Positions 10,741-63,223 of a stretch of 64,000 nucleotides of DNA are shown piece by piece. Every line of letters begins with the position of its first letter. Position 1 is the first letter of the stretch. The DNA comes from Siphlonurus alternatus (taxonomy: Eukaryota > Arthropoda > Insecta > Ephemeroptera > Siphlonuridae), in assembly GCA_949825025.1 (NCBI GenBank), contig OX463782.1, positions 3,359,501 through 3,423,500 of the forward strand, given 5' to 3'. The notes beneath the pieces are model-generated. The model was not told where the DNA came from. It was given only the letters and a program-made list of their open reading frames with translations, and ran no database searches. The translations under genes were made by a program, and so were the position numbers.

Positions 10741-11303
10741 ATCTGAAATATTTTTATTACGAAACCAGTTTCCTGCTCAAGAAATAAATAATCTTATATG
10801 GGATTTAACATTAAATATTTTTTTTTAATTTTCTTGCTGGAAATTGGTTTCGTAATAAAATTATTTTAGACGTTCTTTGATTAAAGCTCATGTCAGGGGA
10901 TATGACTGCTAATACTGCTATATATTAATATATTTCGTAACACAAATATACGAAAATTCTTTGAGTAAATCGAGTGGTTTAAGTCAAGTTAAACCCCAAA
11001 TACATTGTAAAACGTATAAAACGATTCATTCTGTCAGAGCCTGTTGTCGGACTTTGAATTTTCTGGAGAACCTCTGTAAATGGATTTTTTTTTTTTTTTA
11101 GATATTCGGTTCCATGCAGCACAAAAAAATATATTTTTTTAAAAATGACAATTAATTTTTTTTTTTATTTTTTTTTTTTTGAAAAAGGACGGTTGTTGAT
11201 TTTACTTTTATTGCTAAATATTGTCATTAAGTAAAAAAGACGACGAATAAAAAATAAATAAAAAAATCACACCATCGGCAAGGTTTCTGCCTTCACCCTT
11301 TAT

Positions 11304-11689
11304 GGGTATATAAATTATAAGGTACCCAATGCTAAAAAAAAATCCCACACATGAAAATTATGAAAAAAATAAATAAATTGTTCTCCTCTATAACATCCCC
11401 TATCAGTGGCTAAAATATCAGGTATACAAATGCGAGCTAGTTTTCGAGTTATGAATTTTTAAAATTGACTAATTTATTATGGAAGTTTGAGTTTTCCATG
11501 TTAAAGTAGTCAACTTTAAAAATTCATAACTAAAAAATTATAGCTCGATCGAATTTGCATACCTGATATTTTAGCCACTGATAGGGGATGTAGAGGAGAA
11601 CATTTTAATTTTTTTCATAATTTTCATGTGTGGTATTTTTTTTAGCATTGGGTCAGCTGATCCTTACCCTACCTTACCCTTAAACGCTG
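11304..11689. mobile_element. TTAA-target MITE, 'GGGTA' ends, second insert in fold-back right arm
   Basis: The right flank is TTAA (11690-11693) after 'accttaccc'; the left flank has decayed to TTTAT. The interior carries the 'cccaatgctaaaaaaa' and 'tatcaggtatacaaatgcga' motifs shared with copies at 20466, 32815 and 35189. The unoccupied site 'gtttaaaa' is present in the left fold-back arm near 6352-6359, so this element landed after the palindrome formed. Confidence 0.75.
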
Positions 11690-13132
11690 CGGCCACACCG
11701 CCAAGGGGGCCCACTCTGAAAGTTTACCCCTGGGCCCATAATTTAAAGTTATAATACGCCCCTGTTACGGAATCATCAAGAACTTTGCCCTATACATAAT
11801 GATTCAGTGTAAATTTTATTTAATATATGTGTGCTAATAATAAAAATATGAAAAATTAAGTAATCGCGGTAGTCTGATTTTTGAATTAACACCTAACAGA
11901 TTAAGAATTTATTATTTTATTATCTCGGACCTTTCATGGGCACTATAATATAATAATGTAGCATATATTATATATTATAGTCAAAATTGAATATACAAAT
12001 ATAAGTCCATGCTGGGGCAAGTGTTCATGCAGTTCATGCACCCATTAAGGCCAATTAACCTCTGAGTAGAAATTTGGTGCACATCGTATACAATTTTTGA
12101 ATCATTTTAATTTAAAGCCGGTAGATTACACGATACAATTTTGCATACAATTTTTCCTTGCAAGAAAATTTCACCTCCATCCGCGTGGTGTCATTCGCGC
12201 TAACCGCGAATTATATTTTGAGGAAACAATTGTTTATTATAAACATTTTATTTATTTATATTCTACCAAAGAAAAATATTAGCAACGATTGTGCTACAAT
12301 TAACTTATAACTCTTATAAAAGTGCTATAACTCATATATAATATAATTTAATTATGTTTCTAAAATTATGTAAATTTTGTACCACTTAATTATTAAAGTT
12401 ATTTGAAATTTATTAATTTTGCATGTGTACATTTTTTTTCTAGCTATATTTTATTATAATTTTATTACGTATTTTTTAAATAACATAATATATAATAATT
12501 AATATTGTAAGTGCCGGGCCCTGCGCCCTGCAGCATTAATTGTTTATATACATAATAATAATACATCATATATTATATTATAAATACTTTCACCAACAGA
12601 CACAGGGACCATATACCTGCTACTATTATGCTTATGCAATTTTTTAATATTACTAATCTTTTATAAAAGCGTACAACACGCCAAGTACGATTTTTTACAG
12701 TCTCGCGGGTTCATTTGTATTTTTTTGTTACATTAGTGACGTCATGAATCATATGTTACACTTCGAAAAATCAACCGACGTATCTTTAATGCAGCCACTT
12801 CGGTTTATGACGTCATCGTTTGTTAGCCAATGAAAATAAACCGAAGTATCTTTAATGCTACCACGACCGAAGTGGCAGCAGACAGTTCCCTTGATTTCGT
12901 TCTTTTCGTCGGGTTTTCGTGGTTTTCGTTTCCATGGTAACCACAGCTGGACCAGCTGATGTAATTGTGATTTGTGAGGTTGTGACCACACATCTGTCCG
13001 ACATCTGCCACACATCACAAGTGTGTCATTTGAGTTATTATTTGAGGACAGTTAGATAATTAGATGTTTGCGTAAGCAACAGTCTAAAAAAAATAATAAT
13101 TATCATACGTGCAAATCTAGCTGCTGAGCAAT

Positions 13133-20465: not shown

Positions 20466-20812
20466 GGGTAAGGTAACGCCACCAATGTTAAAAAAAATCC
20501 CTCTCACAAAAATTCTGAAAAAAATTTAAAATGTTCTCCTCTATACCCCCTATCAGTACCTAAAATATCAGGTATACAAATACGATCTAGTTTTTGAGTT
20601 ATAAATTTTTAAAGTTGACTACTTTAACATGGAGAAATGAAACTCCCATGTTAAATTGGTCAACTTTAAAAATTCATAACTCAAAAACTAGATCGTATTT
20701 GTATACCTGATATTTTAGCTACTGATAGGGGGTGTAGAGGAGAACATTTTAAATTTTTTTCAGAATTTTTGTGAGAGGGATTTTTTTTAACATTGGTGGC
20801 GTTACCTTACCC
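20466..20812. mobile_element. TTAA-target MITE, 347 bp, copy 1
   Basis: It is flanked by TTAA at 20462-20465 and 20813-20816. Terminal inverted repeats start GGGTAAGGTAACGCC. The whole element is a palindrome with 'tatcaggtatacaaatacga' in each arm and a short asymmetric centre. A copy of the same length lies inverted at 35189-35535. TTAA duplication is typical of piggyBac and Kolobok-type transposons; no transposase is here. Confidence 0.88.
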
Positions 20813-25670: not shown

Positions 25671-28120
25671 AACTAAAGGTAGAGAATCCCGAGCTTTCCT
25701 CCCCTCTCCATCTTGCTACCTCGAACATGGTGCCGCGGAGTGTTGGACGCCGCGGCTGCGTGTCCAGCGTGGGGTCTACTCAAGTGAAGGTGCAGCTCCA
25801 CAGGCCTGTGTTCGATCACCGGCGTGTTCGGAGCCGCCTCAGCAAGGAGACTGGACAAAGAGCGCTGCTTGCTGAGACGACGTCTCCGAGCTTTACGTTC
25901 GCTAGATTCAACAGTAGGAGAACGTAAATTTGTCAAAGAATTATGTAATGGCTTTTCTGATGGACTTTCAGATTGTGATGATGTTGATGAATTTATTTGA
26001 GCAATTTTTGGTAATTGTTGTTTTTTAATAACTAATTCTTCATGTGATTTTGATGTTTTATTTGTTCCATCAATATTATTATGTATTTTTTTAATATGAT
26101 GTTTAATTGAGCTTTCATTATTATGATTAATAATTTTTTTATTATTATAATAATATGAATAACTTGGAGATATTTCTCCATCACGTAATTTATGTGCAAA
26201 TTCACTTGTTGCTTTTTGTTTTTGATATAAATGTGTTGTTTTTTTAGATGAAGATGAATTACTAATTTCATTATTATGTTGTGTATCACCACATTCTAAA
26301 TATACTTGAGTTGTATTTTCATAAGTTGGCTCTAAATCAGTGTCAGGAGATTTCCATATCGGTGATAAACTGTCTCCGGAGAAATCTTGTTCGTTCAACG
26401 AGCTGTGACCCGATGTGTTTGGTTGTGGAGAAAGGTCAGCTTGGGTCAAGAGATGAGTCGAACTGAGGTCAATGACCGGTTTGTCAACTACGGAGATTTT
26501 ATCACCATCCACATGACTCTCTGTTAATGCTGTCAACTGAATATAATCAGCTAAAGATGAAGTAGTCTTTGATTTAAATAATCTTTTATTTTGTTTTTCA
26601 ATACGTGAACCACGATCATTTGAACGTAATGATTCTTGAGCTAAATTTTGAGCATGTAATTCCATTTTTAATGCAGTTTTTGAACTTGGTTTTAATATTT
26701 TTTGTCTTTCTATTTTACGTGTTTTTTTCTCATGATTTGTTGTTGTTGTTGTTGTTGATACATGTTGCTGTTGTTGTTGTTGTTGTTGATGTTTATTTGT
26801 TGGTATTGTTTCAATTGGTGGTGGTTGTGGTGCTTTATTATTTAATGATGAATCATGATCTTCAAAATTATTTGATCTTAAATTTTTTGGTAATGGTGCA
26901 AAACCACGAACATAATCATATATTTGATCAATTTCTAAAAATTCTTGTGTTGGTGCAACTATTTCTGTTGTTGCTGTAATTTCATCTTGAGTATTAATTG
27001 GAGATACTACAATTTGACTTTCATGTGATACACTTCTACGTAAAAAATAATTTTTACTTGAAATTTTTGCTCCAATATGTTTACTATGATTTGGTGAAAT
27101 ATTCCAAAATGAAATACCATCTTTGAACGTTTCTAATACTGTCATTCTTGAGTTTATATCTCTTGCATGACGTGATGCGGAGGATGCAAGACGCTTGAAT
27201 TGCTCGGTTTGACGTAACTCTGGGTGGTTTCTAGCTCGGACCAGCTTGAGGTTGCAGGCCGCGGGGAGGGGTACGACCCCACTTGATGAGTCCTTGCTGT
27301 GTTGTCCAAGGGGTAGCGCGAACAGCGTATCTTCCTCAAAAGTAGAGAAGAGCCTCAGCTCAGAGCATGCAGGCTGCGCTGTGCCACTCCCTTTAAAGGG
27401 CGGTGGTCCCCATACAAGGCGAACCATAAGCGGAAGTCTCTTATTAGTTACCAATTGACGTAACGTATGAACTCCACTTATATTATCATTTCTTGCAATA
27501 GGACTAAATTTTCCACGTTGTTCCATATTTAAATAAACAATATCTCCTTTTGAATCTGTACATTGTAAAAATTTATGATTTCTTGATGATCTTGTTAATG
27601 ATACTTCTTTTTGTAATGTTAATATTTCTCCAGCATTTATAGTACGTGATTTATCAGCACTTAATTCTACTAATGGTATTGCAGTAACAAATCCACGAAC
27701 ATTTTCACGTACTAAAACACATTCAGGAAATTTTTTTGTTAATTCAGATACACTTTCAATACATTTTACAGCTTTTCCTTCTTCACTTAATATTTCAAAA
27801 TATCCAGGATATGATTCAGGTATTGAAAATCTAATACCAGATGATACAGAACAATTTCTTTTACCATCTTTAAATTTAACACTTTGAGCAGCAACTTTTA
27901 ATGTTTTTCCTAATGTTGTAAGAATGGCATTTGAATGAAGACTTGGATTTGGTAAATTTGGGACACCGAGACTTGCGAATTGTCCTCGGACGAATTTCAC
28001 GAGTTCGGATCTCGGAGATTCTTCGGAGCGCGCTTGGGAGAGGAAGTCTCGGAGGCTGAGGACATCTTCCGTGGACCAGCGGGCGGCGGCGATCACGATC
28101 TGTCCATCCGTGGCGGCCAT
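25671..28120 (-). CDS. CABIT-domain protein (GAREM/THEMIS-type), single large coding exon
   Basis: An 815-residue frame runs from ATG at 28120 to TAG at 25671. A good acceptor ('cgttttcgtttcag') sits 12 bp before the ATG, so a 5' UTR exon lies upstream. Residues about 10-280 look like a CABIT module: an ARWSTEDVLSLRDFLSQ start, then repeated blocks with ESYPGYFEILSEEG, VTAIPLVELS and LPLMVRLVWGPPPF. CABIT proteins are adaptor or regulatory proteins in receptor tyrosine kinase/ERK or lymphocyte signalling in vertebrates. IYDYVRGFAPLPKNLRS near residue 400 contains a possible phosphotyrosine site. A poly-Gln tract is near residue 447, and the C-terminal half is disordered, Ser/Asn/Lys-rich, with RKARRRRLSKQRSLSSLL. 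Codon use alternates sharply along the exon (see findings). Family identity is good; no ortholog name is assigned. Confidence 0.85.
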
Positions 28121-28328
28121 CGCACCTCACATCTGAAACGAAAACGTGCAACAATTAATTAATTATAAAATGGTTAAGGTGAGTTTATAGTTATTATTTT
28201 TTAGCACGCGACGCCACGCCTCATTATTTGCTACATCCACATATACCTCTAGACTGCACGAATTTCACTCCTGCCTCACTTGTTAGAGCTGCAGCTCCAG
28301 CAATTTAGATAGAGAGATACAGATTTGC

Positions 28329-32814: not shown

Positions 32815-33179
32815 GGTAGAGATAATACGAATCAGCTGGCCCAATGCTAAAAAAATCCCATTCATAAAAATTATGAAAAAAATTTAAAATGTTCTCCTCT
32901 ACATCCCCTATCAGTAGGCAAAATATCAGGTATACAAAAACGAGCTAGTTTTCGAGATATTAATTTTTAAAGTTCTCTAATTTAACATGGAGAAATGGAA
33001 CGTTCATGTTAAATTAGTCAATTTTAAAAATTAAAAACTCGAAAACTAGCTCGTTTTCGTATACTTGATATTTTGCCTAATGATAGGGGATGTAGAGGAG
33101 AACATTTTAAATTTTTTTCATAATTTTTATGAATGGGATTTTTTTAGCATTGGGCCAGCTGATCCGTATTATCTCTACC
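32815..33179. mobile_element. TTAA-target MITE, 'GGTAGA' ends with type-A interior
   Basis: Flanked by TTAA at 32811-32814 and 33180-33183. Ends are ggtagagataatacg and complement. Its interior ('cccaatgctaaaaaa', 'tatcaggtatacaaaaacg') is that of the 20466 type, while its termini match the 9017 and 60325 type. Confidence 0.85.
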
Positions 33180-35188: not shown

Positions 35189-35535
35189 GGGTAAGGTAAC
35201 GCCACCAATGTTAAAAAAAATCCCTCTCACAAAAATTCTGAAAAAAATTTAAAATGTTCTCCTCTACACCCCCTATCAGTAGCTAAAATATCAGGTATAC
35301 AAATACGATCTAGTTTTTGAGTTATGAATTTTTAAAGTTGACCAATTTAACATGGGAGTTTCATTTCTCCATGTTAAAGTAGTCAACTTTAAAAATTTAT
35401 AGCTCAAAAACTAGATCGTATTTGTATACCTGATATTTTAGGTACTGATAGGGGGTATAGAGGAGAACATTTTAAATTTTTTTCAGAATTTTTGTGAGAG
35501 GGATTTTTTTTAACATTGGTGGCGTTACCTTACCC
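35189..35535. mobile_element. TTAA-target MITE, 347 bp, copy 2 (inverted relative to copy 1)
   Basis: TTAA flanks at 35185-35188 and 35536-35539. It has the same length as copy 1 at 20466 and appears almost identical, but the asymmetric centre ('catgggagtttcatttctcc') is reversed relative to copy 1. The high identity suggests recent activity. Confidence 0.88.
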
Positions 35536-36360: not shown

Positions 36361-36761
36361 GGGTAAGGTAACACGAATCAGCTGATTTTGTAGTCCCATT
36401 TGATTAACATGTAAACCTTAGCAAATTCACAAAAATTCTGAAAAAAAATTGAGAGACAGATTTCCTAAAAGCCATAGAAAAAATTTTAAGACAATAATTA
36501 TTCGAGCCTTTAAAAAAAAATAAATAAATAAAAAATAAGTTTTTAGTTTAGCTCTCCATGGGCAAGCCCTATGCTGAAAATTAAAAATAATAATAATAAT
36601 TAAAAAAAAAATGTCTCGAAAAATTGTCTTGAAATTTCTTCTATGGCTTTTAGGACTAAAATCTATTGCTCAAATTTTTTTCAGAATTTTTGTGAATTTG
36701 CTAAGGTTTACATGTAAATCAAATAGGACTACAAAATCAGCTGATTCGTGTTACCTCACCC
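36361..36761. mobile_element. TTAA-target MITE, 'GGGTAAGG' ends with type-B interior
   Basis: TTAA flanks at 36357-36360 and 36762-36765. Arms pair 'cgaatcagctgattttgtag' with 'ctacaaaatcagctgattcg' and 'aaattcacaaaaattctga' with its complement. Both arms have 'aaagccatagaaaaaa' or its complement. Confidence 0.85.
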
Positions 36762-37571: not shown

Positions 37572-40500
37572 TCACTGCATGTTCAACTTGGCAGCCTCTT
37601 GACGGATCACAGAGATCAAGTCTTGGTTCACCAGGAAAATGAAACGTAGGCTCGCGATCTGAAACATGACCATGTACAATGTAAGTACGTACACAAGCTA
37701 TAATGCTCTTATTGCAGTGTTAAATAAAGGTGTAATTTCATCAGGCTGTTGTAAGTAAGAGTGGTTAAAAAATCTCCTAGCAATGACAAAATATTTGTAA
37801 CATCTCTTTCATTGATCAGAACCTTAATGGAAAGCTTACGGCAATACATGACTAGTATTAATATTATTAGCCCTAATGATAATTTACAAAAAAACAAGAC
37901 TGGCTACACAAGACACTGAGCGTAAATCTCAAAACTTGTTAAAATGAAAGGGAACTTTTTTTTTCTGATGTAGGCACCACATTGAAATATCACAAGTGGA
38001 TATTAAATGCAATATTCTTACATTGAGTGCTCATTTAATTTAAAAACAACAACAATTCAGTTATGAATATAAATTACAGTATCCATTTTCAGGCTTCTAA
38101 AAAATTCAATATAGTAACCACACCTTTACTCAATTTTTTTCCTTAAACATAAATATTTTTGTAACTTTTATTGAGTAATAATTTCTTATCAAGAATTTAT
38201 TACTTCAATTAAATATAATACTATATAAAATAGAGGCTTCAAGTGTTCCCCGGCGGGATTTTTTTTTTTTTTTTTTTTTTTTTCTCCATAAGCCACCATG
38301 TTAGAAAATTTGAAGTTTTCTCTGTTACTATTAAAGCTATTGATTTGAAACAATCTCCTACCCCCAATTTAGGGGTCTTCTGACAATGAATTAAGAGCTT
38401 ATTTTCCTCTAAAAAATTTCTTTAGCGCCAAAAATGCAATTTCATTTTTTTTTTTTTTAATTTTCTATTTTTTTTTTTTTTTTTTTACATAGGTTTGAAT
38501 AAGACGGAGGGAACACCGCATAATCAGCTGACTTGAAGCCTCCATTGCTAGCACCAATTATTATTTCCTCTAAAAAAAGGCACATATTCTGAAGAGGTGC
38601 AATAAAGCAAGAAGAGAGATTTTCTCATGAAGACAAACCCACTTCTATGACGGAGTTGTTGTTAAGTCTCGTCTTGTTTCCGGTGAGCAGGGGTCGTCCG
38701 TCCACCATGATCGGCCGCTTGCCCTCGCTGGCCAGGAAGAAATCTCCATTGTTGCGCAGGCGGATGGTGCCCTGACGACGAGAAATCTTCCAGGCAGGGC
38801 CCTCGAGGGACAAGTCTACGTCCATCGTGAGCTCCTTGGTGGAGCGTCCGAGAGATATCTGGGGGAGCACATCAGAGTCTGTCAGACGTTGTCATGAAGC
38901 TTAGTGGAGAAAGTGATTAGTAAATATTATCATTGAAAAGGTTAATTTTCTTGACTTTTTACCACAAATGACATTTATCAGTAGTGAAATAGATACTTGC
39001 TACCCATGGTCTAGAAAAGAAAGAAAGATAAAAAAATGCTATCAATCTTAAATACTGTACTTTAAATTACTAATAAAGGTCAGTTTCTATTCTTTATTTA
39101 AAAAATGGCAACCAGAAAATAAAAAAATTTGAAGGCTTATATTTGGTTTTCAAAACTCAGCTCTCAAATTTGCTGAATATAAAGGAGAGTGGGGGGAAGA
39201 AACACGAATTCCTTATAAGTATTTTGATTATTTTGTCCATCTAACAGCATAGTTTCTTTATTAATACAACAGTCTCACCTCTCTACTGCGCATGAGGTAG
39301 CGCACCAGCCTGCCTCGCAGCACGGCCAGCGTCTGGTTATCAAAGTCGACGGGGCTAATTCCGGTCACGTGGTCCACCGACACTGCCCACTGACGACTTT
39401 CAGCTTCCAGACGATTCACCTCTCGCTGCAGCGCTCTGGTAACAAGAAGTGAGAAGCAAAAGGGTTAGAAAAAACAGTTCTCTTTAATAAACTGCAACTG
39501 AAATAATGCTGAATATATTTAATTTTTTAGGAAGATTTTCTTTTTTAAACCTGTGTACCAACTGTGGTTCAAAATATAATTTGACCTTGAGATTAATAAC
39601 GATTAATATTAACTTGTGAGCTACTGGAGTGCATGATCCCTTTTCCAGTCAACACAGTCAATATTCTGTAGCCATGTATTTATAACAACTAGATCTGTCT
39701 TAGGGGAATGTTCACTGGTGTATTTTATTGTTTTTGATAGTGTGCTACATTTGCTTATAAAAAGGACAACAAATTTAATTTATCCAAAAAAAGTTACAAT
39801 TCAAAGGAAAAAAAATTAATCTTACTTGTGTACAACCAACTGTCCATATTAACAAAATTTCTCAAAATATCTTCTTATTTGAAGCACAGCTTGTAAGTAC
39901 AAACAACATTGTGCACAACTATTAACCACAAAAGACATAAAAGAGAATGGAAATGAAAGAATTATAAGAATTTTGTCTTTTAAAATGAATAACAAAACAA
40001 AGTCGAGGCTCACCTATCCGCGAGGTTCATCTCGTGGTTGAGGGCTTCGTCTCGCGGGTCCTGCAGGTCTGCGTCTCTCAGCAGCTCCTCCGCGTCAGAC
40101 AAACTGGCAGACTGCTCACCACGCTGCATGCCCTGCACTGTGGAGGGAGGTAGGACATGTTGAGACAAGGTCAAAAGTGCCATGCATTTTGGAAGCAAGA
40201 AGAAATAAAAATAAAACAATTGAAAATAAATAATAGAGTAATTTAAGTGATATTTGATTTTTGACAACTATAATAGAAATAAACGGGAAATGTAATTTTG
40301 ATTCTTTCTGAACTTTACTCTCTGACATGCTGTACTATACATTTAATATTACAACTTTTTGAACTGAAAATAGCATGGCAATTGTTCAGACTAAATAAAA
40401 GTAATGCTGATAACGACTACGTAACTTGTTTCTAACTATTTTTTAGCATATTTTTGTATTGATGTGTGAACACAAAAGAATTGAGATTTCATCATCAAAT

Positions 40501-43500
40501 TCCTTCATACATTTTCCCTACAGTTAAAGGAGGGGAACCGCTTCAGCTTTTATATTTTTAATGCTTTATAAATAATGTCAAACTTACTTGTGCACCAAAA
40601 AAAAAAGTCACCACCCTCCGCCTTTCACCAGTTCAGCAGTTGACATTCAAAAAGCGCGCCAAAGAAAATTGGGGCTTATGACGTCAAGCGCCATGATTGG
40701 TCAAACGCAACCAATCGTTGATCTTGACGTCATAAGCCCCAATTTTCTTTGGCGCGCTTTTTGAATTTCAATTGCTGAACTGGTGGAAGGCGGAGGGTGG
40801 TGACTTTTTTTTTGGTGCACAAGTAAGTTTGACATTATTTATAAAACATTAAAAATATAAAAGCTGAAGCGGTTCCCCTCCTTTAATGCCACACTGAAGT
40901 AAAAATCAGACAATTTTTCTTATCTTACAGGTACTCTATCAACAAATTTCTGTGGTAAGGACACCAATAGAGGTGGTTTTTGTACCTGTCTGGTCTGGCA
41001 GCAGGTGGTACTGCTTCATCAACTGCCAGTGAGTGTAGAGGGCCTTGGCGCTGCGTGTCGGATAGAACACTGTCGAGTGTTGCTCCAGTAGGGACTGGAA
41101 CGTCGACAAGTTTGGCGTCGAGCTCTGCAAACAACAACGTCAACATTAGAAGGTACCAAGTGTGCTGGACGTTATTATGACGTGTTTTTACTGTCAGATT
41201 TTACTTTGGTTTAAAGACAAAATTTATATTTAATTATTCTGCTACTGTATATAATAATAGTTGATACCTAATTAAATCTTTAGATTTGAACTCTTATTTT
41301 TGTATTTCTAAAAATCATTTTTCATTTCAAGAAATGCACAAAACACAAACTACAGTATTTTACAGTACAGTGCTTAAATTTTGAGTAATTTTAGAACACA
41401 TAATATGATGAAGCTCTAAGCTTTGTGAATATCCGCACTACAGTAGAATGCTATATTAACAGCTTGCCAAGTCTCTGGTTTTGACACTCACCGAAGGCAC
41501 TCTGGCGAGGATGATCTCCTCTGAGCGGCTGTAGAGGGCACGTGACCTCACTGCGGCGATGAGCTCCGGGTGCAGATTACGCATGGCTGCCACGGACACG
41601 CGAGAGACCGCAGGGTCATAGAGCAGCGCCCACCAGCGGCCCTGAAGCTCTGCCAGCGTGAACCGACACGAGAACTTGACCCCTCGATGCACCAGACGAA
41701 GGTCATTGGTCTGTGAACAACGTCAGTAACAAGTTAGTGGTTGTGGAATATAGAAACATGGTGTGAAAATTTAAGGAGAGGTCAAAACAATACACATTTC
41801 TCTCTCATAGATGAAATAAGTGGAGAACATACAAAAAAAAAATGTACATATTGATAAAAAGAGGAAGGAAAATACAAACAACCTTACCACGATGAAATGT
41901 CCGTAGTGAGGAGAGTCTTGATGGCACAGATGACATAAATATATTTACAAATACATTATTGAGATGCTTCAACCAACAATGTATTTGTAAATATATTTGT
42001 GTTATCTGTGCCATCAAGACTCTCCTCACTACTGACGTCTCATCGTGGTAAGGTTGTTGGTATTTTCCTTCCTCTTTCCTTTTCTCAATATATTCAACCG
42101 CAATGGTTCATCTTTCCTTATACCTAAGAATGTTAAATCAGTTAAAATAATAAAATATAATTTAATTTGTAGGCCATGAGAAAAAGGGTAAAGTCACTAT
42201 TGTCTGATTTGTTAGTACTGTAGCTTCTAAGATAAAAAATACTAATACTATACAGTATTTAACATTTTATGAGTACTCATACAAGCACCCAGAATAGACA
42301 TCTCAAACACCACACTCCTTGGACCGAGTTACAATGCCCAATAAGAGAGCAGCTGCAATAGTCAAGGGGAGCATGATATAATGTTATTTTGATACGTTAG
42401 ACCTCAAAACTGGGCCCAGTTTTCCTTACCTGCTGCACGCCCACAATGAGAGCTAGATCATCAGTAGGTTTCCATCGCCCCAAATCCTTGGTTGCCATGT
42501 TGTGTTTGGGCTTGCCACGCCTCCTGTTGGACTTGGCCGAGCGTCTTCTCTCGGCAGCCGGTATCGCGGGAGTGCTCGCGTGGGCGGAGCTTGTCTGGGA
42601 GGTGGAGGGGGCGGCAGGGAGGGGAGGCAGAGAGGGGGAGGGAACAGAGGGCAGCTGACTGGAGGAGGGAGACGCCACGGAAGAAGTAGAAGCTGGAGAG
42701 GCCAGAGCTGTGCCTGCAAGCAAAGACGGGTATCAAACATCTGTGGGGAATGTAATCAAATTACTTTGCATGGAAGTTCATTATAAAGGCGGATTCAGAT
42801 GGCGACAATGGCGATGCGACGCGATTTTGTCACACAAGCTGTGAAATCCTATGCGGAAGCGAATTCGCCATTGCGGAGGCGAATATCGCATTCAATTACG
42901 ATGCTCTTTTTTTTTAATCGCCAAATATGGCCGCCAATGGATGTTACAACAAGTGCGCATTATTCGTTTCGCGTCGCAGGCTAGAAATCGCCATGTGAAT
43001 CCGCCTTAATAGAATCCTGACAATGAGCTTGTTTTATTTAACTGGCTGCTGAAATGTCTATGACAATTTCTTCCATGAAAAACAAGTTTATTGTCCAGTT
43101 TAGTAGAATTCTTGTAGTAAACTGACTGTGAGTTCACCCAACTGGCTGAGCACTGAAATTTTTATATAAATTTCATCCATAAATGAAAATTTTATTGCAT
43201 GCCTTAAATTTAGTCCACCATATTACATGGCTAACTGAAACTGTTCAGTATTTACAACAGTATTTAGATATTTGTAGCAAGGTAAAAATTATCATTAATT
43301 AATTACGTTACATTATTAAAATAAATCATAGTAAATACTATACTGTAGTTTTATAATTGATCTAAAAAATAAAAGTAAAACAGTAAAACAACAAAGATGA
43401 AAGTAAACACTGCACTTGCTACTTGTAAAACTGTTTTGTTATTTACAGCACAACTGTAACTGTAAAAAAAGTTTTTATTGAATTTTGGTGTAAAAGGGGG

Positions 43501-46500
43501 GGGGGGGGGCAAACTTAACAGTTACTAGTTATTTACTTCTATGTATAATGCCTAAACGTGCTAGCAAAGAAATTCTGCTTCAATTGTAAGAGTTAAAAAA
43601 TAAATAATAATGGGATCTTTCAAAGTTACCCGCACAACTTTGTAGAATTCTTGATTCAGCATTTTTCTTACTTGGCATTGCTGGCAGTGAGTTTGAGATG
43701 CCATACGGAGACGTCATGCTACTGGACGAAGCCCCACTTCCCCTGCTTCCCTTGCCACCAAATCCCGGGAGCATGGACCCTCCTCCGAGACTCGACTCCA
43801 CGATCTCGTCATCAAATCTTCGTCGCTTGATTGACCTCGAACTGCTGTAATGTCACAGTGAGACGTTAGCACTTGAAAGGTAAAAAATGAGGATCTCAAG
43901 ATACCTTCTACGCTGTGCAGGATCCATGGAAGGCCCTGCAGAAAGGGTTCGTTGACGTTCTCTGATTGACGGACTCAAAAGTGGTGTCTTACGGATATTT
44001 TGAATACCTCCAATACTTGATATAGGAGTCTGAAAAATAAAAACATGAATCAAAATGACAATAATGCACACTCAGTCTATTGTGGTTCACATTCAGACTC
44101 ATACAGTATGTATAACTTGGTTTTAATCATGTTTGTATCGTCTTCAGTCACTCATATTAATAGTTTATTGACGCTGAGCTGAAGGATGAAAACCAAGCGA
44201 GGAAGGGCCGGACACATGGACACATGTGATTAAAGACTTTATTTCAAGACTTTACAGAGCCTCAGTGGAGGTGGCTACAGTCCCTGTAACAGGGACCGCA
44301 ATTCTAGAACTTAGGCTCCCTGTATTGAAACTGCGCATGCGCGACTGAATGCATTTCCGGTACGTCATTTGTTGCATTGCAGGGACCGTAATTTTTGAAA
44401 CTAGGATCCCTGATGTATTCAATTTTAATAATAGGCCAAGTATAATAAAAGTTACAGGGAGCCAAGTGTTCGATCAATGCGGTCCCTGTAGTGAACTTGT
44501 AAAACGTGTTGTCATGAAATAGATGCAGGGACTGTAATATCCCGAAGTTGCGGTCCCTGTAATCAAATTTTCTTAAAGAAACGCGGCAATACATACACAC
44601 AGGGAGCGTAACATTCAAGTATTGCGGTCCCTGTAGTAAAAATTTCGTACTCTTATCTGGCCAAGTGCATGTTATACAGGGACTCTAACAACCAAAAGTT
44701 ACGGTCCCTGCAGCAATTATTTCTTTATGGACGCGGCAATAAAAACTACAGGGAGCGTAACATTCAAGTATTGCGGTCCCTGCAGTGAAAATTTCGTACT
44801 CTTATCTGGCCAAGTGTTATACAGGGACTCTAACAACCAAAAGTTGCGGTCCCTGCAGCAATTATTTCTTTATGGACGCGGCAATAGAAACTACAGGGAG
44901 CGTAACACTCAAGTATTGCGGTCCCTGTAGTAAAAATTTCGTACTCATCTTATCTGGCCAAGTGTTATACAGGGACTGTAACAACCAAAAGTTACGGTCC
45001 CTGCAGCAATTATTTCTTTATGGACGCGGCAATAGAAACTACAGGGAGCGTAACATCTAAGTATTGCGGTCCCTGCAGTGAAAATTTCGTACTCTTATCT
45101 GGCCAAGTGTCATACAGGGACTCTAATAACCAAAAGTTACGGTCCCTGCAGCAATTATTTCTTTATGGACGTAGCAATAGAAACTACAGGGAGCGTAAAA
45201 TTCAATTAAGTATTGCGGTCCCTGCAGTGAAAATTCTGTACTTTTCTAGCAAAGTGTTATACAGGGACTCTAACAACCAAAAGTTGCGGTCCCTGCAGCA
45301 ATTATTTCTTTATGGACGTGGCAATAGAAACTACAGGGAGCGCAACACTCAAGCATTGCGGTCCCTGTAGTAAAAATTTCGTACTCTTATCTGGCCAAGT
45401 GTTATACAGGGACTCTAACAACCAAAAGTTGCGGTCCCTGCAGCAATTATTTCTTTATGGACGCGGCAATAGAAACTACAGGGAGCGTAAAATTCAAGTA
45501 TTGCGGTCCCTGCAGTGAAAATTTTGTACTCTTATCTAGCAAAGTGCTATACAGGGACTCTAACAACCAAAAGTTGCGGTCCCTGCAGCAATTATTTCTT
45601 TATGGACGCGGCAATAGAAACTACAGGGAGCGTAACACTCAAGTATTGCGGTCCCTGTAGTAAAAATTTCGTACTCATCTTATCTGGCCAAGTGTTATAC
45701 AGGGACTGTAACAACCAAAAGTTACGGTCCCTGCAGCAATTATTTCTTTATGGACGCGGCAATAGAAACTACAGGGAGCGTAACATCTAAGTATTGCGGT
45801 CCCTGCAGTGAAAATTTCGTACTCTTATCTGGCCAAGTGTCATACAGGGACTCTAATAACCAAAAGTTACGGTCCCTGCAGCAATTATTTCTTTATGGAC
45901 GTAGCAATAGAAACTACAGGGAGCGTAAAATTCAATTAAGTATTGCGGTCCCTGCAGTGAAAATTCTGTACTTTTCTAGCAAAGTGTTATACAGGGACTC
46001 TAACAACCAAAAGTTGCGGTCCCTGCAGCAATTATTTCTTTATGGACGTGGCAATAGAAACTACAGGGAGCGCAACACTCAAGCATTGCGGTCCCTGTAG
46101 TAAAAATTTCGTACTCTTATCTGGCCAAGTGTTATACAGGGACTCTAACAACCAAAAGTTGCGGTCCCTGCAGCAATTATTTCTTTATGGACGCGGCAAT
46201 AGAAACTACAGGGAGCGTAAAATTCAAGTATTGCGGTCCCTGCAGTGAAAATTTTGTACTCTTATCTAGCAAAGTGCTATACAGGGACTCTAACAACCAA
46301 AAGTTGCGGTCCCTGCAGCAATTATTTCTTTATGAACGCGGCAAGAGAAACTACAGGGAGCGTAACATTCAAGTATTGCGGTTCCTGCAGTGAAAATTTT
46401 ATACTTTTTCTAGCAAAGTGCCATACAGGGACTCTAATTATACCCTTCATTATTATACCGTAACTTTTGGTTGTTAGAGTCCCTGTATACTACTTTGCTA

Positions 46501-48962
46501 GAAAAGTACTAAATTTTCACTGCAGGGACCGCAATACTTGAATGTTACGCTCCCTGTAGTTTCTATTGCCGCGTCCATAAAGAAATAATTGCTGCAGGGA
46601 CCGTAACTTTTGGTTGTTACAGTCCCTGTATAACACTTGGCCAGATAAGATGAGTACGAAATTTTTACTACAGGGACCGCAATACTTGAGTGTTACGCTC
46701 CCTGTAGTTTCTATTGCCGCGTCCATAAAGAAATAATTGCTGCAGGGACCGCAACTTTTGGTTGTTAGAGTCCCTGTATAACACTTGGCCAGATAAGAGT
46801 ACGAAATTTTTACTACAGGGACCGCAATGCTTGAGTGTTGCGCTCCCTGTAGTTTCTATTGCCACGTCCATAAAGAAATAATTGCTGCAGGGACCGCAAC
46901 TTTTGGTTGTTAGAGTCCCTGTATAACACTTTGCTAGAAAAGTACAAAATTTTCACTGAAGGGACCGCAATACTTAATTGAATTTTACGCTCCCTGTAGT
47001 TTCTATTGCTACGTCCATAAAGAAATAATTGCTGCAGGGACCGTAACTTTTGGTTATTAGAGTCCCTGTATAACACTTGGCCAGATAAGAGTACGAAATT
47101 TTTACTACAGGGACCGCAATACTTGAGTGTTACGCTCCCTGTAGTTTCTCTTGCCGCGTTCATAAAGAAATAATTGCTGCAGGGACCGCAACTTTAGGTT
47201 GTTAGAGTCCCTGTATAGCACTTTGCTAGATAAAAGTACAGAATTTTTACTGCAGGGACCGCAATACTTAATTGAATTTTACGCTCCCTGTAGTTTCTAT
47301 TGCCGCGTCCATAAAGAAATAATTGCTGCAGGGACCGTAACTTTTGGTTGTGAGAGTCCCTGTATAACACTTGGCCAGATAAGAGTACGAAATTTTCACT
47401 GCAGGGACCGCAATACTTGAATGTTACGCTCCCTGTAGTTTCTATTGCCGCGTCCATAAAGAAATAATTGCTGCAGGGACCGTAACTTTTGGTTGTTAGA
47501 GTCCCTGTATAACACTTGGCCAGGGCCAGATAAGAGTACGAAATTTTCACTGCAGGGACCGCAATACTTGAATGTTACGCTCCCTGTAGTTTCTATTGCC
47601 GCGTCATGCATAAAGAAATAATTGCTGCAGGGACCGTAACTTTTGGTTGTTAGAGTCCCTGTATAACACTTGGCCAGATAAGAGTACGAAATTTTCACTG
47701 CAGGGACCGCAATACTTGAATGTTACGCTCCCTGTAGTTTCTATTGCCGCGTCATCCATAAAGAAATAATTGCTGCAGGGACCGTAACTTTTGGTTGTTA
47801 GAGTCCCTGTATAACACTTGGCCAGATAAGAGTACGAAATTTTCACTGCAGGGACCGCAATACTTGAATGTTACGCTCCCTGTAGTTTCTATTGCCGCGT
47901 CCATAAAGAAATAATTATTGCTGCATGCAGGGACCGTAACTTTTGGTTGTTAGAGTCCCTGTATAACACTTGGCCAGATAAGAGTACGAAGTTTTCACTG
48001 CAGGGACCGCAATACTTGAATGTTACGCTCCCTGTAGTTTCTATTGCCGCGTCCATAAAGAAATAATTGCTGCAGGGACCGTAACTTTTGGTTGTTAGAG
48101 TCCCTGTATAACACTTGGCCAGATAAGAGTACGAAATTTTCACTGCAGGGACCGCAATACTTGAATGTTACGCTCCCTGTAGTTTTTATTGCCGCGTCCA
48201 TAAAGAAATAATTGCTGCAGGGACCGTAACTTTTGGTTGTTAGAGTCCCTGTATAACATGCACTTGGCCAGATAAGAGTACGAAATTTTTACTACAGGGA
48301 CCGCAATACTTGAATGTTACGCTCCCTGTGTGTATGTATTGCCGCGTTTCTTTAAGAAAATTTGATTACAGGGACCGCAACTTCGGGATATTACAGTCCC
48401 TGCATCTATTTCATGACAACACGTTTTACAAGTTCACTACAGGGACCGCATTGATCGAACACTTGGCTCCCTGTAACTTTTATTATACTTGGCCTATTAT
48501 TAAAATTGAATACAGGGATCCTAGTTTCAAAAATTACGGTCCCTGCAATGCAACAAATGACGTACCGGAAATGCATTCAGTCGCGCATGCGCAGTTTCAA
48601 TACAGGGAGCCTATGTTCTAGAATTGCAGTCCCTGTTACAGGGACTGTAGCCACCTCCGAGCCTCAGTACGTATACATATATAATGAAGTAAATATTATA
48701 TTTTAAATCATGTAAGAACGTAATATTTATTCATAAGGTATTCTTTTAGACCCTAATGGCAAACAATAAATATTGTTTTTCCGACTTCACCGGGAACGAT
48801 TGGGTGTGTCTTGAATCCAAACCCACATTTAAATTATATTTACCAGCTTATTTCTTTACTTACCGAAACAGTTGGGGTGGTTACCGTATGAGCTGTTGTC
48901 AAAGATCCCATTACATCACAATCTAAAATCCCATCATTTTCAAAAGCGTCTAAAATATCCAT
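37572..48962 (-). CDS. MCRS1: Microspherule protein 1 (MCRS1 ortholog), ten exons, complete
   Basis: Exons are 48962-48864, 44029-43905, 43844-43672, 42713-42430, 41710-41492, 41124-40986, 40137-40014, 39435-39279, 38858-38643 and 37658-37572. All are GT-AG, and the phases join to 540 codons plus TGA. Matches to vertebrate MCRS1 run from RRSSSRSIKRRRFDDEIVES (near residue 75) through TKDLGRWKPTDD, TNDLRLVHRGVKFSCRFTL, ALYTHWQLMKQYHLL and SDAEELL to a C-terminal FHA domain (about residues 440-540: ISLGRSTKELTMDVDLSLEG, NNGDFFLASEGKRPI, NNNSVIEIASLRF). The protein is about 80 residues longer than human, mostly from a Ser/Pro/Ala-rich exon 4. MCRS1 is a nuclear and centrosomal protein of the NSL and INO80 chromatin complexes. 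Intron 1 holds a 4.4-kb fold-back element and other introns hold MITEs. Confidence 0.95.
40528..40882. mobile_element. TTAA-target palindromic element in MCRS1 intron
   Basis: TTAA at 40524-40527 and 40883-40886. Ends are AGGAGGGGAACCGCTTCAGC and exact complement, and the arms are nearly perfect over about 165 bp each. The loop region has 'atgacgtcaagcgcc' and 'ttgacgtcataag'. High arm identity suggests youth or ongoing conversion. Confidence 0.85.
41848..42091. mobile_element. Palindromic element in MCRS1 intron
   Basis: Arms pair 'atattgataaaaagaggaag' with 'cttcctctttccttttctca', 'aaccttaccacgatga' with 'tcatcgtggtaaggtt' and 'tcttgatggcacagat' with 'atctgtgccatcaaga'. About 244 bp with a small loop. 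Confidence 0.7.
42787..43006. mobile_element. PIF/Harbinger-like MITE, copy 2, in MCRS1 intron
   Basis: TAA flanks at 42784-42786 and 43007-43009; AGGCGGATTCAGATGGCGA left end and mirrored right end. It shares 'gcgatgcgacgcgatttt' and 'ccaaatatggccgccaatgg' with copy 1 at 33766 but is 11 bp longer. Confidence 0.78.
44560..46437. repeat. Left-arm tandem array, about 145-bp units, with a 730-bp higher-order repeat
   Basis: Each unit has two hairpin modules ('cagggactctaac' to 'gttacggtccctg', and 'cagggagcgtaac' to 'attgcggtccctg') separated by linkers that contain 'caattatttctttatgg' and 'ttcgtactcttatctggcca'. A pattern of five units repeats at 730 bp: marker variants such as 'gtagcaatagaaac', 'attcaattaagtattg' and 'gcaacactcaagcattg' occur near 45174/45904, 45201/45931 and 45342/46072. 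Confidence 0.9.
46462..48345. repeat. Right-arm tandem array, complement of the left array
   Basis: The same units occur in reverse orientation. Marker variants appear once near the loop ('attgccacgtcc', 'attgctacgtcc', 'attgccgcgttc'). The outer units are near-uniform and carry unique short insertions (for example 'gtcatgcataaag', 'gtcatccataaag', 'gctgcatgcaggg', 'ggccagggccaga'). The two arms have therefore been remodelled separately. Confidence 0.88.
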
Positions 48963-49245
48963 TTTCTGATGCAATCAAGAAAAAACAAGATTCTTCTTTT
49001 TTACCACAACAAATATGGCGCGATCTGCGCGAACGTGCAACGTTGCAATTTACCATCTCGATTGTACATCGTTGCAATGTCTCCTTATCCGTTTTCCAGA
49101 TTTTCCAGAATAAAAAATTATTTGTAGGTTTTTATCAAGAATTATGTGTTGTATAATATTTTATTATAATATTAAAAAGTAGATCTGCATATTGCCGATT
49201 GAAATAAAATACATTATATAAAAAGTAAAAAAAAAAAGGTAAAAA
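48963..49245 (-). promoter_or_regulatory. Probable 5' UTR/promoter region of MCRS1
   Basis: Just upstream of the MCRS1 ATG the sequence becomes GC- and CpG-richer ('atggcgcgatctgcgcgaac' at 49015-49034). On the minus strand this includes 'gcgccatattt', similar to YY1-type core promoter sites in animals. No TATA box is clear. The tRNA gene begins within 300 bp. Confidence 0.4.
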
Positions 49246-49318
49246 TGTTTCCGCCCGGGATCGAACCGGGGACCTTCCGCGTGTTAGGCGGATGTGATAA
49301 CCACTACACCACGGAAAC
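49246..49318 (-). tRNA. tRNA-Val (anticodon AAC)
   Basis: The 73-nt minus-strand gene begins GTTTCCGTGGTGTAGTGG (A box) and holds GGTTCGATCC (B box). The acceptor stem GTTTCCG pairs with CGGAAAC, and the anticodon loop CTAACAC gives AAC. The T arm CCCGG-TTCGATC-CCGGG is perfect. A T-rich run just downstream (plus-strand A-run at 49227-49238) would terminate RNA polymerase III. CCA is not encoded, as normal in eukaryotes. It looks functional. Confidence 0.96.
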
Positions 49319-49640
49319 ACATAAAACGCCCTCATAAAATTTTAGCTAATAAAATTTTAAACAATGTAATTACGAATCCAAAATTATAAATTAAATAATT
49401 ATAATATAATTAATTATATGCCTACAATTAAAATTAAGCTATTATAAACAGAACCAAACAGGGTTGGACTACTTGGACTGGGCTTAATTAAAGGCCGGGC
49501 CTAATGAGCAAACAGGCGGAGAACAGGACCCATATCAAAAAGGGCCTCTACTTGACCCTGCAATGTGGCGGGGGCCTAATTTTAACGTTGTAGGGGTCTC
49601 CCAGTCGAGGGGGCCTATATACTGAGCGATCACTCACCAA

Positions 49641-59600: not shown

Positions 59601-62600
59601 GGTGTCACATTTAGGACCACAATAGTGGTTAGGAGGACTCACCAAGCCGCCTTCCTCTTTGGTAGGACTGCCACTGCTGACGGCGCTCATCAGAACGGTG
59701 AGCTTTGCGTCAGCAACAACCTGACGGAAAACGTCAGATTAGAAGAGGATCATGACGTCAGTTTAAATTAATATAAAAAACATGATTCATTCTTTATTGA
59801 ATATTAGAGTATCGTCAAGATTTAGTTGCATCATCATGAAGATATAATATATAATTCCCTGTCCGGAATAATGAACTATCTGCTATTTCAGGTGAGCGCA
59901 AAATTGAGCTTTATTTTATATACAGTACGTTTACATGACGGTGTTTAATGCGTATTCGTTGACGAAGGATAATGTTATTCTTATGAGGCGTCGTCAACGA
60001 ATACGCATTAAACACCTTCATGTAAACGTAGTGATAGATTTACAGCTCATAATTGCACTGACCTGAAATAGCAGATAGCAACGAAATTGCAACGAAATTG
60101 TGGTAAGCAGACAGCTCATTATTTCGGAAGAGGAACAATATTATAGTTGCCAAAGTTATTAGAAATAAATGAGGCTTTTTTTCATCTTCATCACTAAATT
60201 AGAAATTATGCACAACTCGACTTAATTAAGTTTGATTATAATTTTCTTGATTTCCTACCACCTTTATTATTTTGTTCCTCTTATGAACAATATTTTCAAT
60301 CAAAATTGTCACATAATAACTTAAGGTAGAGATAACGCCGAAAACAGCTGTTCCACGTACTTCCCTTTGATTAACATGCAAACCTTAGCAAATTCACAAA
60401 AATTCTGAAATTTTTTTGAGAGACAGATATTAGTGCTATGGAAAAACCATGAAAAAAAAACATAAAAAAAATTTCAAAACAATTTAACGAGCTGATTTTT
60501 TTTAATTAATTTTTTTAATTTTCAGCATAGGGCTTTCCCATGGAGAGACAAACTAAGAATTTAATTTAAAAAAATTGGCTCGTTAAATTGTTTTGAAACT
60601 TTTCTATGGCTTTTAGGCACTAATATCTCTGCCTCTTAAAAAATTTCAGAATTTTTGTGAATTTGCTAAGGTTTACATGTTAATCAAACGGAATTAAGTA
60701 CGTCGAACAGCTGTTTGGCGTTATCTCTACGTTAATTGAACACAAAACATCCTCTGCAATCAGGTGGTTCACCAACAGTTCTCTCACCTCGGCGGTGTAA
60801 GTAAACTTGACGGCTGGAGTGTCCTGGCACGGCATGATGGTACGACAGTGGATAGACTGCAACCACCACATACAAATTTAGGAGAGAGTTTTTCCTATGC
60901 TCGAATTGCTAATTATTTTTTACGGTACCACGATCTCCTTTACTCAAAATTGAGTTTTACCGTACAACAAGATGTATAGTAAGTAACAAGTTTTTACTGT
61001 AAAATTTTATTTTATTATGAAGAAATTTTAATTTTTATTGTAAATGTTCTAAAAAAAAATGTATTCAAATTACAGGCTCAGGTGAATAATGGAAGTAAAT
61101 AATTTTAGATTAGCTATTTGTAGCTGAGATTCACTAATGTGGTAATCTGATATACCTGACATTGGCTGAACATGTAAGGGTGCTTCTTTCCTGTGGTCTG
61201 TTCCGGAGTCAACCATTGCAGAGCACAAGCCTGGGGAGATGACTCGTACTCAATGTCCAAGTCAAACTTCCTGTAGGAACAATCAATAAATGATCAGTTT
61301 AGAACCAAAAATTTAAAATTACTAACTTTAATATATATTTAAAGAAGATAGAAACGCATACGATAGTAAAAGATTTGTTGGGAAGGGAGATAGTTCGAGC
61401 TTTTGGTCGTCATTGACCTAGCAAAAGGAGAAAAAAAATAATTAATTAAAACAATGATATGCGTGTATATTAGGTTTGACTCGCCGTTCATTTTTAGAGA
61501 AAGAGAGGGATTTTTGGCTTGATCAGCTAGTTTTTGCTAGCAAAATCGTCACACAAATAATACATTTGGTGCACCACTGTTCGATTTTTCAAATAATTAA
61601 TTAACTATAATGTGTAGAAATTCCTAAAGGGGTACCAAAGTGAATACTTTTATTACATGTTCGGGCAGCTACAAATTATTCTGATATCCCTGTGGCTCAA
61701 TATTTTCGTACAATGCCTAGTTATTTTATAATTAATTATTTAGTTTGAAAAGTGAGTTTGAAAACCGTTGGTTGATTCAAGCATCCCCGCGGCCGCAGCA
61801 GCCGGTGATACGACAAGAAGGGGGCGGGAGGAGGTTCCCCCGATTCGCGGGAGATTCTCGTCGTATCAGCGGCTGCTGCTGGAGCGCACCGGTTTGAATC
61901 AATCAACGGCCATATAACTCACTTTTCAAACTAAATAATTAATTGTAAAATAACTAGGCATTGTATGAAAATATTGTGCCACAAGGATATCAGAATAATT
62001 CGTAGCTGCCCGAACATGTAATAAAAGTATTCACTTTGGTACCCCTTTGAACTAAAAATACTTATGTCATGGAAATTTAAAACATATCTTACAATTAGTT
62101 GCCTCTCTTGATTAATAAAATATTGTAATAGGGTTCTAATCATAGTACTAAAAAGAGGGGGTATTGCAGCTCTTGATTAAAATGATTAAAATTAAATATC
62201 ACTTTAACTATTTCTAATAATTATTGTTGTGATTTTTAACTGTATTTAACTTACTTGTTAGTGTCCAGTTTTCTATAGTATTTATTTTTAATTGTGTTAA
62301 TATTAATATCAATTAAAGTAGAGTGAGCGATTTTTTCTTTTGAATATTTTATTTTCTAAAAATAGTTTAACTTGCCCTCTATTGAGAAATGAAAACCAAA
62401 AACTTCCATCTCAAATAGCTTCACCACAAAAAATTCCCAAAGTTGGTGTTTCGGAGGCCTTTTACATGCATCCTTATGGAACAGAAAACAGCTTTTTACT
62501 CCAACTTCGTCTGAACTATGGTACCAATTAAAAAATATGTACGTAATGTATGATGAATTCTTTAATGGATTTTCAAATAAAAAAAAATCACGGAGCCGTT

Positions 62601-63223
62601 TTTCCGGAAAAAAATATTGACATTTTTGCGGGTTAATTCTCATAAGGATTTTTTTCCGGAAAAACGGCTCCGTAAAAAAAAAATTATTTAAAAATCCATT
62701 AAAGAATTCATCATAGATTATGCACATACGTATTTTTTAATTGGTACCATAGTTCAGACGAAGTTGGAGTAAAAAGCTGTTTTCTGTTCCATAAGGATGC
62801 ATGTAAAAGGCCTCCGAAACACCAACTTTGGGAATTTTTTGTGGTGAAGCTATTTGAGATGGAATTTTTTGGATTTCATTTCTCAATAGAGGACAAGTTA
62901 AACTATTTTTAGAAAATAAAATATTCAAAAAAATGAAATCGCTCACTCTACTTTAAATTTAATGTTTTTTAAGCATTGTAGTCATTTTCTTTTTTTCTAA
63001 TCAAATTAAATTCTTAATAATAATCAATAATACAAAGGCAGAACAATGAATTATAAATTTTATTACAACCCTAATATTTTCAAGTGACTTACTTAGGAGC
63101 ATTTTTAGGTAGGGTGACTTCAAGTTTCTGTCCGAATGTGTGGGTGACTTCTCCGAAAGAAAACTCCAGCGGAACATTGTTGTGAGAGATCTTTTTTACT
63201 GTCAAATCCTTTGCATCTAAAAC
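53668..63223 (-). CDS. LTA4H: Leukotriene A4 hydrolase (M1-family aminopeptidase), 5' end beyond window
   Basis: Exons are 63223-63093, 61270-61156, 60856-60788, 59720-59643, 59268-59119, 58620-58480, 58401-58195, 57346-57202, 56497-56323, 55542-55303, 54703-54599 and 53788-53668. Phases join into 558 codons plus stop. Motifs line up with animal LTA4[41 protein letters not shown], the substrate loop [16 protein letters not shown], zinc site HEISHSW with the second ligand in [16 protein letters not shown], and the carboxylate-binding [10 protein letters not shown]. The enzyme hydrolyses LTA4 to LTB4 and removes N-terminal residues from peptides; the invertebrate role is mainly peptidase by family knowledge. 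About the first 50 residues are missing because their exon lies past 64000. All catalytic residues I can check are present. Introns are full of palindromic elements. Confidence 0.95.
54163..54563. mobile_element. Palindromic element in LTA4H intron
   Basis: Ends are caatagacaataat and complement. Arms also pair 'ttatttcataattagaaaat' with its complement and 'ctgatgggacaaccgtgac' with 'ttaccgttgtcccatcag'. The core has 'cgtgacgtcatttg', plus 'ctgtgattggctgt' twice as a direct repeat. Confidence 0.72.
54942..55213. mobile_element. 'gcagaaatg' family element in LTA4H intron
   Basis: 'agacaacctgcatg' on the left is mirrored by 'catgcatgttgtcc' on the right, as in the 14643 copy, with 'ccagaaatgaatagagggtg' and 'accctctattcatttctgc' inside. 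The left side contains long poly-T. Confidence 0.65.
55972..56289. mobile_element. 'gcagaaatg' family element in LTA4H intron, close to an exon
   Basis: 'aatggagtatcaagctc' left, 'caatactccatt' right. Internal 'ttgcagaaatgg' and 'tgcaaagttatgttaccttg' are mirrored. The right end lies only about 33 bp from the donor side of exon 56323-56497. Confidence 0.72.
58010..58150. repeat. Imperfect inverted repeat with CRE-like sites next to the zinc-site exon
   Basis: 'tatctttgatttgacgtcac' is mirrored by 'gtgacgtcaaatcaacgata' with about 40 bp between. It lies about 45 bp from the acceptor side... that is, just beyond the donor of exon 58401-58195. It may be a small MITE; no duplication is clear. 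Confidence 0.5.
59863..60127. mobile_element. Nested palindrome in LTA4H intron
   Basis: The outer arms pair 'ccggaataatga' with 'tcattatttcgg', and 'ctatctgctatttcaggt' with 'acctgaaatagcagatag'. The inner hairpin pairs 'cgtttacatgacggtgttta' with 'taaacaccttcatgtaaacg', around 'atgcgtattcgttgacga'. Confidence 0.65.
60325..60731. mobile_element. TTAA-target MITE, 'GGTAGA' ends with type-B interior, in LTA4H intron
   Basis: TTAA at 60321-60324 and 60732-60735. Starts ggtagagataacgccg. Interior 'aaattcacaaaaattctga' and 'cttttaggcactaatat' match the 9017 copy. It ends 56 bp from exon 60788-60856. Confidence 0.85.
61626..62048. mobile_element. Palindromic element with GC-rich core in LTA4H intron
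   Basis: Ends AAAGGGGTACCAAAGTGAAT and complement. The arms are about 95% alike over 180 bp. The centre (61785-61890) is strikingly GC-rich, with 'gcagcagccg' mirrored by 'cggctgctgc' and 'ggtgatacgac' opposite 'gtcgtatcag'. Confidence 0.75.
62317..62952. mobile_element. TTAA-target palindrome, 636 bp, in LTA4H intron
   Basis: TTAA at 62313-62316 and 62953-62956. Ends AGTAGAGTGAGCGATTT and complement. The arms are nearly perfect over about 300 bp, with a core hairpin 'cggagccgtttttccgga' to 'tccggaaaaacggctccg'. Mirror arms yield the same 60-codon frame on both strands; it is not a gene. Confidence 0.85.

Follow-up and report, generated by a model that had tools for sequence, protein, structure and literature searches.

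A 4.4-kb fold-back element with arms of inverted CAGGGA half-site modules in the mayfly Siphlonurus alternatus

The locus and its surroundings

The stretch of DNA analysed, hereafter the window, comprises 64,000 nt of contig OX463782.1 from the mayfly Siphlonurus alternatus and contains, at 44267–48658, a palindromic fold-back element of 4,392 bp. The Pfam matches MCRS_N (41459–41722) and FHA (38628–38891) represent downstream exons of MCRS1 and, because a likely start exon of this gene is situated at 48864–48961, we place the element within the predicted MCRS1 intron that follows exon 1, the join between the exons being itself part of the prediction. A minus-strand tRNA-Val (AAC) is predicted at 49245–49319, a few hundred bases past MCRS1 exon 1. 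The window also codes for a CABIT-domain protein that, among the best 120 of 284 matches, shows 72–80 % identity to three named mayfly proteins (from Neocloeon, Ephemera and Cloeon) versus 46–50 % to other named proteins, in line with a mayfly host. The main features, with the two types of array module designated A and B and the divergent outer ones M1 to M4, are as follows.

25676–28126, minus strand: CABIT-domain protein (Pfam match)
44257–44266, no strand: left target-site duplication GAGCCTCAGT, an exact 10-bp match to 48659–48668 that abuts the end of the element
44267–44286, plus strand: left terminus, whose outward reading is the half-module CAGGGACTGTAGCCACCTCC; with up to three mismatches allowed, the window has no match besides the two ends
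44267–44599, plus strand: left outer domain, with the terminal half-module and the divergent modules M1 to M4 (starts at 44290, 44380, 44455 and 44526)
44600–46425, plus strand: left array, with units of 145 bp in which modules A and B alternate with linkers a and b, in the order A-a-B-b
44818–46334, plus strand: exact direct duplication of 787 bp in the left array, in two overlapping copies offset by 730 bp (about five units)
46426–46485, no strand: central axis, with a split B-type module and a short loop
46523–48328, minus strand: right array of 145-bp units, inverted with respect to the left array
48329–48658, minus strand: right outer domain, almost the same as its left counterpart
48639–48658, minus strand: right terminus, the same as the left one over the first 30 bp
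48659–48668, no strand: right target-site duplication GAGCCTCAGT, abutting the end
48864–48961, minus strand: probable coding portion of exon 1 of MCRS1 (MDILDAFENDG...), with a GTAAGT donor after it, as read from the sequence

Extent and ends of the element

The two arms account for 2,189 and 2,203 bp of the 4,392-bp element and align with 96.7 % identity (2,161 columns, 70 gap columns), with 72 aligned bases differing between them. The outermost 150 bp of the two outer domains are distinguished by two substitutions and one 3-bp indel and, inward of these but still within the outer domain, there begins a stretch of 432 bp that is identical between arms. The outermost 30 bp are the same at both ends (GGAGGTGGCTACAGTCCCTGTAACAGGGAC), and the 10-bp duplication GAGCCTCAGT adjoins each of them without a gap; the chance of such a duplication at a given position is about 1.7e-6. 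When the flanks were compared in inverted orientation, 15 of 60 bases agreed, showing that the symmetry ends at the ends of the element. A sequence-only reading of this DNA had described a 4.4-kb palindrome with a 10-bp target duplication, and its coordinates, the alignment of the arms and the abutting duplication were all verified.

Long near-perfect palindromes are liable to misassembly, and the exact internal duplications could have been miscounted, so that a fold-back read or a misassembled palindrome has to be considered. Nevertheless, an assembly artefact is extremely improbable in view of the base differences and gap columns between the arms, the target duplication and the non-inverted flanks, since a symmetry that stops at the element ends counts against a fold-back read. 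The expansion of a local satellite without transposition would agree with a tandem array that occupies most of the length, but it is also very improbable given the exact termini, the 10-bp duplication, the inverted arms and the absence of the array sequence elsewhere in the window. There, the end sequence found no further place in the 64 kb at up to three mismatches, no 14-mer of the element recurred outside it, and none of the 112 window self-matches kept touched it. The exact ends, the duplication and the abrupt loss of symmetry outside them indicate, as had been anticipated, a mobile element and not a satellite.

Organisation of the modules

Each arm contains 29 complete modules of the form CAGGGA...TCCCTG, 33–38 bp long and mostly of 34 bp, with no more than one mismatch in the tips; these were perfect in 56 modules and had a single mismatch in the other two of the 58. 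A further module lies split across the axis, and a half-module forms either terminus. Because each terminus is a half-module, which reads outward as CAGGGACTGTAGCCACCTCC, two abutting ends would form a perfect 40-bp palindrome. The total is close to the approximately 60 modules that had been predicted from spacing, and the inverted repeats of about 35 bp with CAGGGA and TCCCTG tips were found as described, except that their length is 34 bp as a rule. Conversely, the linkers, for which some 36 bp had been proposed, measure 37–45 bp, with a single one of 57 bp in each arm.

The element contains 59 copies each of the hexamers CAGGGA and TCCCTG, compared with 4 and 10, respectively, for the remainder of the 64 kb; under a first-order Markov null, both hexamers together had a mean of 1.25 and a maximum of 6 in 500, and the mean number of modules per simulated element was 0.002. 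Autocorrelation of CAGGGA, a check that had been proposed beforehand, showed peaks at 145, 72, 73 and 730 bp, with 72 or 73 bp between successive starts in 36 of 58 cases. Moving inward from either end, the order of modules is M1, M2, M3 and M4, followed by A and B alternating in direct 145-bp units. Three nested scales of palindrome had been proposed, of which those of the module and of the whole element were confirmed; the palindromic unit pair is absent, the 145-bp units being direct tandem repeats, and there are thus two palindrome scales and one direct-repeat scale. A helical phasing of the modules (72–73 bp, about seven turns) was dropped and is not claimed, because the linkers vary; a nucleosome-like length of the 145-bp unit was also considered and dropped.

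In the six module types of the left arm, one half fits the half-site CAGGGACCGYAAY (M3 with one mismatch, at position 12), the other half being weaker. Allowing up to two mismatches, 113 matches to the half-site were found in the window, all of them within the element, for an expectation of 1.43.

Conservation of the half-sites and pairing of the stems

CAGGGA and the A at position 11 were invariant in the 13 half-sites compared, two from each of the six module types plus the terminus, in agreement with the conservation of a binding site put forward by the sequence-only reading; positions 7–10 were skewed to CCGY and positions 12–13 to AY. Between M3–M4 and A–B, the tip bases agreed in 24 of 24 cases and the aligned non-tip bases in 81 of 115. 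Of the 26 array units, 24 were compared, leaving aside the innermost, incomplete unit of either arm; among these, 1 of 24 tip columns was variable versus 28 of 121 other columns (Fisher P 0.047); one of the omitted partial units (46354–46387) contains a tip change, which brings the changed modules to 2 of 58. The same test gave P 0.014 with seven left-arm units, after dropping L2–L6 as duplicates of L7–L11, and was not significant with the 12 right-arm units alone (P 0.077). Modules were located via their tips, which biases towards conserved tips; every expected module position was occupied, with at most one tip mismatch. Since homogenisation affects the array repeats and each arm is a copy of the other, this conservation rests on few independent comparisons.

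It could be argued that the arms are a neutral product of unequal exchange and conversion, which merely homogenised their repeats, and that the tips have no function. The 787-bp exact duplication and the near-identical right-arm units do point to recent amplification, and the outer arms are near-identical; however, even module types with about 30 % divergence in the other aligned bases share the same tips, and we consider this explanation unlikely.

Modules might also be maintained as hairpins or cruciforms, with selection for the structure itself, e.g., as a substrate for replication or recombination or as a source of double-stranded RNA. Indeed, four of the six module types fold as DNA beyond shuffled sequences, with z below −2 (M3, −2.17; M4, −3.93; A, −5.17; B, −3.07), the values for M1 (−1.19) and M2 (−1.81) being above this limit. 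In an alignment of 12 variants hand-picked from the 58 modules, in one orientation, the 13 stem positions were paired in 79.1 % of cases as drawn, compared to 31–44 % after sliding the partners by 1–3 columns, and positions 8 and 11 paired in six of six types, position 8 partly as G-T. Nevertheless, pairing was practically the same with shuffled partners (79.0 %), and there was no excess of covariation in these 12 hand-chosen variants (0.030, versus 0.040 when shuffled), a test in which 7 of the 13 stem pairs are invariant and therefore silent. Additionally, positions 7 and 9 are mismatched in four of six types and position 10 in two of six, and a G-T pair on one strand corresponds to an A-C mismatch on the opposite strand. 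Pairing far better than that of the slid versions is expected of any inverted half-sites, and the conserved hairpin structure suggested previously was not supported by covariation; selection for structure is, in our estimation, decidedly unlikely. A conserved half-site sequence together with stem pairing that lacks covariation favours protein binding over hairpin structure, on the basis of few independent comparisons. We thus read selection as probably acting on protein-bound half-sites, of which there are few independent types, with the stem as a by-product of their inversion.

Growth of the arms

Aligned with an A–B array unit, unit M3–M4 and its linkers agreed at 105 of 139 bases, for a score of 103 (at most 13 for shuffles); among its parts, M4/B and the linkers L4/b scored above shuffles, while M3/A and L3/a did not when taken alone. 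M1 agreed with the reverse complement of A at 17 of 21 interior bases, scoring 22 (at most 12 for shuffles), and with M2 in direct orientation at 15 of 21, scoring 18 (at most 6 for shuffles), whereas the score of M2 against the reverse complement of A merely equalled the shuffle maximum. The resemblance of M1 to the reverse complement of A and, directly, to M2 points to a probable change of orientation from M2 to M3. The right array contains successive units that are almost identical, apart from small private insertions. We infer that the arms probably extended inward from the outer domain, by tandem duplication of the two-module 145-bp unit.

Array units from 44600 to 48328 differ by insertions of around 3–7 bp, mostly in linkers, several of which duplicate adjacent bases (e.g., CTGGCC and ATG). 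The number of complete modules is equal in both arms (29) despite their differing internal duplications.

Coding content and sequence relatives

None of the 26 stop-to-stop ORFs of at least 60 aa in the element reached the Pfam cut-off, as expected for a non-autonomous copy. The best sub-threshold match, from two identical array ORFs (E 0.0041, 17.7 bits versus a cut-off of 19.2), and the remaining weak matches (E of at least 0.02, below the curated cut-offs) were deemed spurious, because these reading frames are made of repeats. A protein search from two frames of the element returned no match at E up to 10 and hence no autonomous relative, and neither a transposase among the element ORFs nor a second copy in the window was found. 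Likewise, the window had no match at the gathering score of any of 4,227 Rfam families. The module pattern had 0 matches in a viral contig collection; queries with 17 bases of the end and with a loose three-tip pattern produced two and four single matches, respectively. In a genome contig collection, the module pattern occurred at 17 bacterial loci, with one palindrome each, detected on both strands, and no second place, which we took as unrelated hairpins.

A second fold-back and other palindromes in the window

A second fold-back of 7.6 kb, at 5269–12889, is flanked by a 9-bp target duplication (CTTGATTTC) and its ends begin with GGA. Its outer arms are identical at 682 of 692 aligned bases, and the inner matching pieces at 85–95 %. 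The terminal motif GCCACTTCGGT is mirrored inside as ACCGAAGTGGC, and a further mirrored pair (ACTTCGGTTTAT/ATAAACCGAAGT) comes after the first; any inverted 11-mer pair appeared in 1 of 1,000 simulated 130-bp ends. The two fold-backs share no 14-mer and gave no BLAST match at 1e-8, and none of the 10 ORFs tested of the 20 (at least 60 aa) in the second one reached the Pfam cut-off. Two unrelated fold-backs with GGA ends, duplications of 9–10 bp and mirrored terminal motifs would fit mobilisation by one class of transposase.

Other palindromic elements are nested inside 5269–12889, and TTAA was the best target-duplication candidate in 7 of 21 inverted-repeat intervals, a set that includes both long fold-backs. 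Five of the following seven have GGTAGAGATAAY or GGGTAAGGTAAC ends.

20466–20812, 32815–33179, 35189–35535, 36361–36761, 40528–40882, 60325–60731 and 62317–62952: short, fully palindromic TTAA-flanked elements

Proposed nature of the element

The element is a genuine transposon, of a non-autonomous fold-back kind already known. As a probable though far from certain interpretation, we favour one that is likely mobilised by Mutator-like functions and has arms that are arrays of half-sites probably bound by transposase. Insertion would have occurred by a cut-and-paste reaction that left the 10-bp target duplication, and mobilisation would take place in trans, probably by a Mutator-like transposase encoded elsewhere in the mayfly genome. 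The arms would consist of inverted pairs of the half-site CAGGGACCGYAAY, with a strong and a weaker half per 34-bp module every 72–73 bp or so, probably bound by the DNA-binding domain of the transposase. If so recognised, each arm could be a multi-site loading platform conferring end specificity. The length of the duplication and the architecture suggest a Mutator-like affinity, bearing in mind that one 10-bp duplication does not settle the superfamily, and we do not file the element as a MULE because it contains no transposase. A more tentative, and in our opinion doubtful, possibility is an undescribed group of mayfly fold-backs with a dyad grammar, in which arrays of inverted half-sites, occupied by transposase dimers, would take the place of the usual direct repeats; the second fold-back, with its own mirrored terminal motif, would then represent a sister family recognised through another sequence.

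The purpose of the long repetitive arms of fold-back transposons is an unsettled question. The strong and weak half-sites, the terminal half-module and the diverged outer modules make up a natural series for direct tests of transposase loading and, if the dyad grammar is true, joined ends would reconstitute a perfect palindromic module of 40 bp. Mayflies are an old branch of winged insects, and fold-back arms whose array unit matches a unit of the outer domain, as proposed for Tetris, now appear in one of them.

Comparison with known fold-back elements

The features of the fold-back class are present here: long inverted arms that make up most of the element, tandem repeats inside the arms (145-bp units, about 13 copies per arm) and a target-site duplication (10 bp). 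Drosophila FB elements have long repetitive arms of direct repeats and 9-bp duplications. Duplications are of 7–8 bp in the P superfamily and of 7 bp in Galileo, a length not matched by the 10 bp found here. The comparisons that follow draw on passages of the cited papers. Fold-backs with long, internally repetitive arms are well known (PMC4079207, PMC3169594, PMC3688188, PMC5225508), in contrast to the impression of the sequence-only reading that no named family has this layout.

Most fold-backs seem to be members of Mutator, with exceptions (PMC4079207), and target duplications of MULEs are of 8–11 bp, a range that includes the 10 bp of our element (PMC6446971). For Ephemeroptera, one MULE is tabulated (row 1/1/1, 6362, 543, 34), with 34 taken as the TIR length (PMC13359780). 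In Rehavkus, the duplication is of 9 bp and a minisatellite precedes the 3′ end, at one end of the element (PMC6446971), versus a 10-bp duplication, from a single insertion, and repeats in both arms here.

As our element, Tetris from Drosophila virilis is an apparently non-autonomous fold-back with no conserved ORF, in each of whose arms a flanking domain precedes a variable direct-repeat array; a stretch of 37 bp is common to the repeats and that domain, and the duplications are of 8–10 bp (PMC4079207). Unlike ours, compared by description, its repeats are of about 220 bp and the passages cited do not mention inverted half-site modules; the string "palindrom" is absent from the text of the paper (PMC4079207). 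Galileo, a P superfamily element from Drosophila, also has long, internally repetitive arms with several transposase binding sites, and the THAP domain of its transposase binds sites within the tandem repeats of the long arms; however, the transposase is of the P type and there are three mapped sites per arm, compared to a total of 118 tip hexamers here (PMC3688188).

Muta1, an active Mutator-like element from Aedes aegypti that was called a type-2 fold-back, resembles ours in its spaced subterminal repeats, its palindromic terminal motif and its class, with duplications of 8–9 bp, but it encodes a transposase and its arms are of 145 bp, with nine 12-bp direct repeats and 3–4-bp spacers (PMC5225508). 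Tm1 from Meloidogyne (Mutator/Foldback) has composite arms built from tandem repeats, with a GGA motif close to the end, and its duplications are mostly of 8–10 bp; differently from ours, the arm repeats are of 13–15 bp, with asymmetric 7-bp motifs (A1/A2) outside the GGA, and some members encode a transposase (PMC3169594). No description of dyad-module arms with half-module ends stood out among the best-ranked open-access papers. Ends that are half-modules and arms made wholly of dyad modules are an unusual design within a known structural class.
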